64,000 nt of DNA from an uncultured Clostridia bacterium. GTDB lineage: Bacteria > Bacillota > Clostridia > Christensenellales > Borkfalkiaceae. Positions within the stretch are counted from its first letter, which is position 1. Each line of letters opens with the position of its first letter. The notes below the pieces were generated by a model. It saw only the letters and a program-made list of their open reading frames with translations, did no database searches and was not told the DNA's origin. Location of the stretch: positions 1-64,000 of the forward strand of contig CANRAR010000001.1 in NCBI GenBank assembly GCA_947628675.1, in the 5' to 3' direction. Positions 1-38,433 of this stretch are shown here, piece after piece. The position numbers and the translations under genes are program-made.

Positions 1-38
1 GAAGAGAGTTACCACCTCGCCGCAAAGGAAAAATGAAG

Positions 39-68
39 GTATAAAATTTTTCATTCCCGTCGATAACC
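39..68 (+). promoter_or_regulatory. possible sigma-F promoter of spoIIR
   Basis: GGTATA is followed, after 15 bases, by GTCGATAACC. This partly fits the forespore sigma-F pattern (-35 GyATA, -10 GGnRAnAnT). It is plausible because spoIIR is a sigma-F gene in Bacillus, but the -10 match is imperfect, so this is only a suggestion. Confidence 0.3.
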
Positions 69-97
69 TCTGCGAAAAAAGTGCGGAGGTTGTGTTT

Positions 98-628
98 ATG
101 AAGAAGTTTGCGGTGATCGCATTGCTCGTGGCGGCGATTTTGGGCGTCGTGTTTGCGTTTGCAGGGACGGGGAAGCGGGAGACCGCGGACGCCGCGTCCT
201 ATCTGCGGGTACATATCCGCGCCAATTCCAACGGCGAGGAGGATCAGGCGGTCAAATACAAGGTGCGCGACGCCGTGGTTGCCTTCCTCACGCCCACCGT
301 CGCGGAGTGCGAGACGAAAGCGGAGGCGATGCAAAAGATCGGCGCAAAACTCGGCGAGGCGGAAGAGGTCGCCGAGCGGGTTCTTGCGGAGAACGGATTT
401 TTTTACGGGGCGCGCGCGGAAATCCGGAAAGAGGAATTTCCAACCCGCGTCTACGAAAATGCGACGCTCGAGGCGGGCGTATACGATGCGCTCATTCTCG
501 AACTCGGTACGGGCAAGGGGGATAATTGGTGGTGCGTCGTCTACCCGCCCCTCTGTTTCGGCGGCGGAAAAACCAACATTATTTATAAGAGCAAAATCAA
601 GGAGATCATCGAAAAATTCTTCGGCTGA
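98..628 (+). CDS. spoIIR: stage II sporulation protein R
   Basis: SpoIIR is the secreted forespore signal that triggers SpoIIGA to process pro-sigma-E in the mother cell. The 176-residue product has an N-terminal signal or membrane segment (about residues 4-24), then the family signature LRVHIRANSNGEEDQ and, near residue 145, GDNWWCVVYPPLCF, which I recognise as hallmarks of the SpoIIR family. I chose ATG 98 because GGAGGT lies 7 bases upstream; the GTG at 92 is only one base from that site. Length is normal for the compact clostridial form. The gene stands alone between a possible sigma-F promoter and a strong terminator, and is followed by the germination genes sleB-ypeB. Confidence 0.93.
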   Translation: MKKFAVIALLVAAILGVVFAFAGTGKRETADAASYLRVHIRANSNGEEDQAVKYKVRDAVVAFLTPTVAECETKAEAMQKIGAKLGEAEEVAERVLAENGFFYGARAEIRKEEFPTRVYENATLEAGVYDALILELGTGKGDNWWCVVYPPLCFGGGKTNIIYKSKIKEIIEKFFG

Positions 629-37175: not shown

Positions 37176-37353
37176 GTGGAGCGGCGGGAGACCCGCCTCC
37201 CACCGAGCGCCACCGTGCAGGAGCTCGGCGGCGCATAGTAACCCCTCTCCCTATATCCCCCTCTCCGCGCCGAAGGTGCGGGGAGGGGGATATGACGGAC
37301 TGCGTTTTGCACGCGGGCATGGGTCAAATCAGAAGAATTTCAAAGGAATTTTT

Positions 37354-37380
37354 GCCCCTCTTGACAAGAGGGGCATTTTT
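37354..37380 (+). terminator. terminator whose loop contains the next promoter's -35 box
   Basis: GCCCCTCTT-GAC-AAGAGGGGC, then ATTTTT. It is the first strong terminator after the SDR gene. The loop and the adjoining stem bases form the TTGACA of the following promoter. Confidence 0.8.
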
Positions 37381-37390
37381 GTGATACAAT
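37361..37390 (+). promoter_or_regulatory. promoter of the rod-shaped RNA
   Basis: TTGACA, 18-base spacer, TACAAT preceded by TGA. Transcription should begin at about 37397, exactly at the base of the long stem of the RNA. Confidence 0.85.
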
Positions 37391-37395
37391 AATTA

Positions 37396-37613
37396 CGCCA
37401 AACAATTCTTATTATCCGTAGGGAGTACGATTTTTTGATGACTTAAACCGTATTGTTTTTTCGCATATTCCAAACAATGGATTTGGCAAAATTGCAAATT
37501 CCACTTATGTTTGGTATATGCGAATGCTTGTACTCCGCGTAAGAATTGTTTGGCGACAATCGGGGTTTGCGTTTTGCAGTGCGCTTAACTTCGGTTGGCG
37601 CACTTTTTATTTT
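37396..37613 (+). ncRNA. candidate rod-shaped structured RNA (6S-like or regulatory leader)
   Basis: The 5' arm 37396-37411 (CGCCAAACAATTCTTA) is perfectly complementary to 37540-37555. Further in, GGAGTAC pairs with GTACTCC. A large asymmetric internal loop follows (about 33 bases against 7). Then CGCATATTCCAAAC pairs with GTTTGGTATATGCG, and an apical hairpin closes the rod. The segment ends in a terminator (AGTGCG...CGCACT, then TTTTTATTTTT). A long rod with a central bubble is the shape of 6S RNA, but a leader controlling the lipoprotein gene that begins 18 bases later fits equally well. Confidence 0.6.
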
Positions 37614-37630
37614 TACAGAGGTGATGAAGT

Positions 37631-38077
37631 ATGAAAAAAGCAAGGCAATGGTTATTTGTGGTGGTATCGATCTTAATTTTCAGCGTGTGTATGATGTCTG
37701 CATGTGCAGGCCAAACGGGACAGGAAGAGGAAGAAGAAGATTATCCTGTTGTCGGAATATGGCATGCATCTACTTCTTGGCATGAAATCACGCATTCCAA
37801 TATTGGAGGCTTATCACATGATTTTGACGATCTATACCAACTCGATATTTATTTTGATTTCAGGGAGGACGGTACGCTACGGAATAAACGTACGCTATCC
37901 ATGAATGGTATAGAATGGAAAGATGATTTTACCGATTGGGTTATTCTGAATATCACGTGGACTGTTTCGGGGAACGTCATTACCCTTTCGAGCGGAAAGC
38001 AATATGTAATCGTTGACGATCAGTTTGATGACATGTATACAGGAAATAAAATCCTGCATTACATAAAAGAAAACTAA
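37631..38077 (+). CDS. small lipoprotein, lipocalin-like fold suspected
   Basis: A 148-residue protein with a signal peptide ending in MMSAC (lipobox, Cys about 25), a short acidic stretch (EEEEED), then a compact beta-rich domain with VVGIWHAS and WVILNITWTVSGNVITLSSG, the strand pattern of small lipocalin-like lipoproteins. GAGGTGATG precedes the ATG. Its codons are AT-rich compared with almost all other genes here, which suggests recent acquisition. It is the first gene after the rod-shaped RNA and its terminator. Confidence 0.7.
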   Translation: MKKARQWLFVVVSILIFSVCMMSACAGQTGQEEEEEDYPVVGIWHASTSWHEITHSNIGGLSHDFDDLYQLDIYFDFREDGTLRNKRTLSMNGIEWKDDFTDWVILNITWTVSGNVITLSSGKQYVIVDDQFDDMYTGNKILHYIKEN

Positions 38078-38112: not shown

Positions 38113-38433
38113 ATGTTACAAGTTTTATTCTTTTACATGTTTACATGGTGGTTCGCAAAACTCGAAAATAAAAAAGTTTTGATTGCGCATGCGGTTGCCG
38201 CCGGCATATTTGCGATATTTTATCTTGTAATCACCATTGTTGCAATCGTGGTCGTCATATCGACCGAGGAAATGGTAGTTTTGGTCGCTTTGTTTGTTGG
38301 TTTTGTTATGATGATCTTATTTTCGATTAGATCGCTAAGCGACATTGGAAAAATCAGAAATTTGCCCCCGAAGCCACAAGGAAACGAACAAAAAACCTCC
38401 ATGCAAAACACAGATATGAAGCCTCACACATGA
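38113..38433 (+). CDS. two- to three-helix membrane protein, unknown
   Basis: A 106-residue protein with hydrophobic segments at about 1-16, 25-49 and 55-75 and a polar C-terminal tail (PPKPQGNEQKTSMQNTD). ATAGGAGAAG precedes the ATG. It is AT-rich like its neighbours in the islet. No family is recognised. Confidence 0.6.
   Translation: MLQVLFFYMFTWWFAKLENKKVLIAHAVAAGIFAIFYLVITIVAIVVVISTEEMVVLVALFVGFVMMILFSIRSLSDIGKIRNLPPKPQGNEQKTSMQNTDMKPHT

Follow-up and report, generated by a model that had tools for sequence, protein, structure and literature searches.

What is the rod-shaped RNA encoded directly ahead of a lipoprotein-like gene in an uncultured Borkfalkiaceae bacterium, and what might it do there? 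The locus lies in the first 64,000 nt of contig CANRAR010000001.1 (the whole stretch analysed, here called the window). An earlier note on this sequence had placed the +1 of a promoter at the foot of a 16-bp perfect stem, which is confirmed by the TTGACA-18-TACAAT promoter and the two P1 strands (Table 1). Its outline of the remainder, with a bubble, a second long stem, an apical hairpin, a terminator and a lipoprotein start behind some 215 bases of RNA, was likewise accurate. The promoter matches the consensus at 11/12 positions and has a TG ahead of the -10 box. The terminator hairpin, followed by UUUUUAUUUUU, was read directly from the sequence and is absent from the output of the program terminator scan. 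The window RNA (37395-37613) folds at -79.8 kcal/mol, compared with -49.0 (sd 4.0) for 200 dinucleotide shuffles (z -7.6), none of which was as stable. Its minimum-energy fold contains, instead of the terminator, an 11-bp alternative (37557-37567 with 37587-37597) that is the conserved antiterminator across the pooled copies described below.

Table 1 Features of the leader locus, in window positions
Feature	Position	Strand	Details
Sigma-70-type promoter	37361..37390	+	TTGACA 37361-37366, 18-nt spacer, TACAAT 37385-37390; predicted +1 at 37396-37397
Leader RNA, terminated form ~215 nt	37397..37614	+	Model R1 match 37397-37608, 173.3 bits, not independent, R1 having been built from 29 sequences that include the window copy
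P1 5' strand, foot of rod, begins at +1	37396..37411	+	Both-side changes in 3/11 counted pairs (alignment A1)
P1 3' strand	37540..37555	+	16 nt, 100% complementary to 37396-37411
P2 5' strand	37422..37430	+	9-bp helix with 37528-37536, between P1 and P3
P2 3' strand	37528..37536	+	Partner of 37422-37430
U-run in large asymmetric bubble	37431..37436	+	
P3 5' strand	37460..37476	+	17 nt, 94% complementary to 37508-37524
P3 3' strand	37508..37524	+	Partner of 37460-37476
Apical hairpin P4	about 37479..37502	+	Loop and 3' half (37486-37502) also complementary to linker
Linker, P1 to terminator, ~23 nt	37556..37578	+	Participates in both rival pairings
Antiterminator 5' strand CAAUCGGGGUU	37557..37567	+	11-bp helix with 37587-37597
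Antiterminator 3' strand AACUUCGGUUG	37587..37597	+	Common to terminator loop and both arms
Intrinsic terminator	37579..37614	+	Stem 37579-37603, U-tract 37604-37614; covariation
First gene, 148-aa lipoprotein-like protein	37631..38077	+	ATG at 37631, 16 nt past U-tract
Likely second gene, small membrane protein	38113..38433	+	41% identity over 92 aa to protein directly behind RNA copy L087

The product of the first gene has no Pfam match at E 0.01. The second gene resembles a protein that directly follows another copy of the RNA, so the leader and both genes probably form an operon. At the upstream edge, a terminator-like hairpin (TGCCCCTCTT/AAGAGGGGCA) with a T-run (37353-37375) overlaps the -35 box of the leader promoter, and an upstream transcript may end where this promoter begins.

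The earlier note had recognised no known class by sequence, and the covariance models of Rfam 15 agree: at gathering score the leader was unmatched in the window, where the only hit was one tRNA elsewhere. Across 16 loci with long and short copies, the RNA was unmatched by riboswitch and leader classes, T-box included; the hits at these loci were 8 tRNAs and, elsewhere in locus L002, one THF riboswitch (RF01831, 65.6 bits; 9-108, minus strand), which lies some 1.2 kb upstream from the second copy in the window's own genome, on the opposite strand. At E up to 10, the region 37300-37680 gave seven matches, all far below their cut-offs, to two miRNA families (three matches), the PyrG leader, an anti-hemB sRNA, a snoRNA and SQ2397. 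A 6S RNA match was absent from the site both at gathering score (window) and at E up to 10 (37300-37680), and a candidate 6S RNA was found elsewhere in the same genome (G000:C3:722-906, locus L048; E 3.7e-5, 32.8 bits, cut-off 46.4).

The RNA belongs to a large family. The second copy in the same genome (C2:148254-148477) precedes a BspA/LRR-type lipoprotein, and blastn finds the two alike over 67-68 nt only, in the last part of the RNA. Among the relatives searched, 55 of 151 genomes match, own genome included. At E 1e-3, model R1, derived from an alignment of 29 full copies (A1), found matches in 81/396 genomes from the order and in 83/391 from the class; at the stricter cut-off of 1e-4, the window's own genome was the only match among 398 from the phylum. 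These are lower bounds, because whenever more than 40 genomes were scanned the filters were stricter and scoring was confined to the 5 or 6 best candidates in each genome, which undercounts copies and genomes. The class sample holds four genomes of the own order, also matching, and the phylum sample contains non-matching members of the class; the single phylum-wide match doubles as a specificity control for R1. Carrier genomes hold 1 to 16 copies, and eight genomes picked for many matches gave 6 to 16 each at E 0.01. A 23-base pattern taken from the linker found at least 119 stretches in named genome records. Among the matches listed (80 of at least 119), on which the attribution of the family to Clostridia rests, are metagenome-assembled genomes labelled Clostridia, Clostridiales, Oscillospiraceae, Ruminococcus, Christensenella or Bacillota, with the gut of ruminants or rabbits as the source of many. 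R1 matched all 119 stretches and three viral-contig ones (60/60 and 62/62 loci).

No plasmid record matched, and one of 50,697 phage records carried a full copy (94.5 bits), at 338-531 of MT835503.1 (L310), near the start of a record from human faeces labelled unverified phage; by eye, the ORF behind it resembles the EcoRI-methylase-like proteins behind L093 and L230. Three viral-collection contigs of putative viral status (L258, L259 and L260) bear an identical copy ahead of a zinc-ribbon protein. Units also occur in tandem, three before a single gene in L290 and two each in L291, L137, L138, L112 and L130, so the unit seems to duplicate as a whole. In both copies of L224, a second linker-plus-terminator module without a rod looks, by eye, to follow the terminator.

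We pooled 233 copies, mostly of the long form, leaving out 8 that were truncated at contig ends, one 49-nt piece and opposite-strand matches to the same RNA; 43 more, mostly of the short form, came from the class search. Named and unnamed collections overlap, and identical RNAs were merged. The 233 reduce to 218 distinct copies, to 211 without near-identical ones and to 208 without three outside 170-260 nt, 206 of which were parsed for the antiterminator analysis. Lengths among 239 parsed copies range from 140 to about 250 nt, with long forms mostly 190-229 and short forms mostly 150-179. Because the window layout recurs throughout the 233 pooled copies, it is not a product of chance.

Promoter and gene position are family-wide. 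Where 60 nt upstream of the RNA could be read (272 copies), 208 copies show a strict promoter whose end falls 4-9 nt ahead of the RNA, as do 41 of 5222 random positions (0.8%); for a looser pattern the counts are 230/272 and 412/5222. An ORF of at least 35 codons, preceded by a Shine-Dalgarno (SD) sequence, starts within 110 nt in 199/233 copies (median 21 nt past the model end) and within 40 nt in 171. The 34 copies without a recognised gene close behind comprise 8 near a stretch end, 2 before another RNA unit and 24 others. Within the RNA, a U-run of at least 5 occupies the 5' half of 140/153 distinct long copies (39% when shuffled) and 32/40 short ones, an A-run lies mid-RNA in 147/153 and 39/40, and a U-run marks the linker in 151/153 and 39/40; the 5'-half U-run and the middle A-run stand well above shuffled sequence.

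The 3' part of the RNA encodes two competing helices. Unconstrained RNAalifold picked over the terminator a rival in which linker CAAUCGGAGUU pairs with AACUUCGGUUG in the terminator loop and arms. Ten of the 11 pairs of this antiterminator form in 190-206 of the 206 copies, and the eleventh in 120. One position in the 3' arm of the terminator covaries with two partners, that of the terminator helix and that of the antiterminator: the triplets of antiterminator 5', terminator 5' and shared 3' base were AGT (59 copies), TTA (53), AAT (39), TTG (20), AGC (8) and GGC (7), with ten other combinations in the remaining 20, and classes (purine/U versus pyrimidine/purine) agreed in 199/206. Parsimony on a rough tree of the upstream part of the RNA counted 18 and 22 class changes at two antiterminator positions. 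That one base follows two partners points to alternative folds, and comparative sequence analysis thus shows terminator and antiterminator to be conserved, mutually exclusive alternatives.

Compensating changes, which the earlier note had proposed to look for among homologues, are present both in A1 and in the 206 copies, and by the same kind of sequence comparison P1 is shown to covary. Across the 29 copies of A1, 99.1% of antiterminator cells were paired, as were 99.0% of terminator, 99.2% of apical-linker, 97.0% of apical-hairpin and 99.7% of P1 cells, compared with 23-55% in slid controls. In whole-structure controls on A1, the 34 cells changed on both sides included 25 for P1, 7 for the antiterminator and 8 for the terminator, while the measure 'further pair types' was attained by 136/500 and 21/500 shuffles. 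In a swap test, the own linker-terminator duplex was stronger than the swapped one in 40 short copies (-13.7 versus -10.9 kcal/mol) and in 153 long copies (-13.95 versus -11.7); it ranked within the best 5% of swaps in only 8/40 and 23/153. Reversed-body controls showed no gain (-8.3 versus -8.6 and -9.7 versus -9.5 kcal/mol).

The linker has a further partner, the 3' half of the apical hairpin, with AAAAAUGCAAAUUCC complementary to GGAGUUUGCGUUUUU. At 11 of the 12 positions, the pair forms in 201 or more of the 206 copies, and at the twelfth in 174, a count favoured by the way the apical strand was located, through its likeness to the consensus. Long-form pairs are mostly invariant or G-U, with both-side changes at 1 of 13 pairs, in one cell of A1, and the swap test was weak for this form (-18.4 versus -17.5 kcal/mol; best 5% in 13/153, the same as in the reversed control). 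The 40 short copies separated more clearly (-15.6 versus -12.5 kcal/mol), and several of them, by eye, keep the pairing with new sequence, for example CAAUCGGAGC/GUUCCGAUUG in L274 and CAGAUGAGUUU/AGACUUAUCUG in L290. Conserved complementarity and the short-form swap test therefore support a predicted pairing of P4 with the linker. P1 encloses the apical strand but not the linker, so the pairing would be a pseudoknot if P1 stays closed.

These features argue strongly for a family of cis-acting, transcription-attenuating leaders with a switch among terminator, antiterminator and apical-linker pairing, a reading that we consider very probable. In the mechanism that we propose, RNA polymerase would start at the P1 foot and make, in turn, the rod (P1, P2, P3 and P4), the linker of about 23 nt and the terminator just before the gene. 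A free linker would pair with the terminator loop and arm as antiterminator, allowing read-through into the gene (ON); a linker paired with the P4 strand, with P4 opened and a pseudoknot formed across P1, would hide the antiterminator strand and let the terminator form (OFF). In the window, the antiterminator is predicted at -18.6 kcal/mol, the terminator at -15.1, the apical-linker duplex at -20.0 and the apical hairpin at -6.8. As the window RNA is lengthened from its 5' end, its minimum-energy folds arrive at the antiterminator, which is also the lowest-energy linker-plus-terminator fold in 136 of 193 distinct copies, though not in all, so polymerase should usually continue into the gene when the pseudoknot is absent. 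Some signal would then stabilise one of the states; we infer the ON and OFF assignment, the role of the rod as sensor and the shift of the balance by a cellular signal.

How the rod might read such a signal can be pictured in part. A bend at the bubble may bring the tip of the rod to the linker, next to the P1 foot; P1 plus P2 and P3 plus P4 of the window copy are similar in length (25 and about 24 bp), which would fit the predicted bend. The U-runs of bubble and linker and the A-run in the middle would, as a conjecture, also allow a U.A-U triple helix. The rod is conserved, but most conserved positions are explicable by base pairing, and a separate ligand pocket is not evident. The earlier note had suggested a ligand-controlled leader: the leader part holds, given the covarying antiterminator and the apical hairpin as a further linker partner, and the ligand is putative. 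That the RNA itself would sense a small molecule or ion, as a riboswitch proper, we rate at slightly under an even chance. More doubtful, and offered tentatively, is a large orphan riboswitch class of gut Clostridia, present in as many as a dozen or more copies per genome and tuned to an envelope-linked signal, in which the apical A-run and linker U-run would form the pseudoknot, the bubble U-run would lie in its groove as a U.A-U triple, and one fold would both read the signal and free or hide the antiterminator.

The genes behind the RNA bear on this signal. The 185 distinct downstream proteins form 110 clusters; the largest cluster, of 43, is a mixture joined by chaining. A Pfam search covered 150 of these proteins, each cut at 330 aa, and among the families listed (25 of 55) are LRR_5 (20), Zn_Ribbon_1 (6) and MazE-type (3), with two each of EcoRI methylase, DUF4236, AMP-binding, WG repeats and GIY-YIG. 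Some gene associations recur by eye in different families of the order, such as the zinc-ribbon protein of L034 and L079. By simple pattern rules, 48/151 downstream proteins with 100 aa or more were lipoprotein-like, versus 25/540 background ORFs, all drawn from loci L139-L257 (odds ratio 9.6, p 7e-18), and other membrane segments occurred in 73/151 versus 156/540. This bias towards lipoproteins and membrane proteins makes it probable that the signal has to do with the cell envelope or with what surrounds it; the genes are too varied to name a ligand. Cyclic di-GMP is unlikely as a general ligand, because 6 of 10 carrier genomes, the window's own (94% complete) included, lack a GGDEF match. 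A diadenylate cyclase occurs in all 10, which proves nothing and leaves c-di-AMP open as a ligand.

Two alternatives retain the same switch and depart from our reading solely in what does the sensing. In the first, which we regard as somewhat unlikely, an RNA-binding protein occupies either the apical hairpin or the linker, much as BglG/LicT, PyrR, TRAP and ribosomal proteins act on leaders. Varied genes under one signal fit a protein regulator, and the conserved apical strand and linker could be its site; against this, protein sites in leaders are usually short, whereas this family keeps a rod of 100 nt and more, and among the downstream genes no regulator regularly stands directly behind the RNA. 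The second, improbable in our estimate, is a ligand-free kinetic attenuator, in which the choice between the rival helices depends on how fast polymerase moves, on the supply of nucleotides (UTP at the U-runs, for instance), on ions or on temperature. It would account for the U-runs in bubble and linker, for conserved residues mostly explained by pairing and for the closeness of the two 3' rivals in the window, but a long rod rooted at +1 is more than a simple attenuator should require.

The remaining alternatives give up the regulated leader or replace its logic. A stable trans-acting RNA, 6S-like or base-pairing, made as the terminated transcript with the gene behind expressed by leakage, is very unlikely. 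Although the RNA has its own promoter and terminator, a 5' end closed in P1 and tandem units without a recognised gene between them (three in L290, two in L291), the start codon at a median of 21 nt in 199/233 copies counts against this reading, under which a conserved terminator/antiterminator choice would be pointless. The 6S identity that the earlier note had entertained did not hold up, given the lack of a model match at the site, the several copies per carrier genome (up to 16), mostly right before varied genes, and the separate weak 6S candidate in the genome. More improbable still is attenuation controlled by a ribosome on a very short leader ORF that follows GGAG in the bubble: a GGAG-like stretch with an AUG in range and a stop after 1-4 codons occurs in 27/208 copies, but the SD-like stretch is missing in 55/208 and an AUG in range in 114/208, and the mini-ORF, striking in one group, is not kept across the family. 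Least credible is a MITE-like mobile element ended by the P1 inverted repeats, as the earlier note had allowed, for despite several copies per genome, some in tandem, and a 16-bp perfect inverted repeat, the promoter and terminator lie outside the repeats yet recur with them, P1 and the terminator covary, the two own-genome copies are similar over their last part only and 218 of 233 pooled copies are distinct, not near-identical, so that the absence of a mobile element is supported, short of proof.

A cis-regulatory leader thus being the preferred reading, the family would be an abundant and apparently undescribed one in mostly uncultured gut bacteria. Its expression platform can be read from sequence, with covariation exposing terminator and antiterminator and a further rival helix also legible. 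One switch shared by lipoproteins and surface proteins that are otherwise anonymous would give access to the signal that sets the cell surface, and with the parts of the switch known, searches for a ligand by in vitro termination assays can begin at once. We found no description of the family in the portions of the open-licence literature available to us, including those of PMC8040213, PMC11109978 and PMC8632094. The first of these reports 3161 candidate RNAs of human microbiomes, and the family could be among them, unnamed.

Among known systems, 6S RNA (RF00013) is alike in its rod with a large bubble and in its similar length. It occurs as one or two free-standing copies per genome, whereas the leader family is gene-adjacent, present in several copies per genome, equipped with an antiterminator and unmatched by the 6S model. 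Cyclic di-GMP riboswitches also stand in several copies per genome before varied, often surface-related genes; here their models find no match, and most of the carrier genomes examined (6/10) are without a GGDEF match. Fluoride, ZTP and preQ1 riboswitches combine a pseudoknotted aptamer, far shorter than this leader, with a strand shared with the terminator choice. They resemble the proposed switch in setting a pseudoknot against the choice between terminator and antiterminator immediately ahead of the gene (fluoride, PMC11077080); the present family differs in having no Rfam 15 match, a mixed gene context and a putative ligand. In the rplJL leader of Bacillus subtilis, rival helices (antiterminator and anti-antiterminator) similarly decide termination, but they are reported to serve one operon under a protein regulator (PMC4538822), unlike the hundreds of copies before unrelated genes seen here. 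The mechanism belongs to a known kind; the family, its size and its gene set appear to be new.
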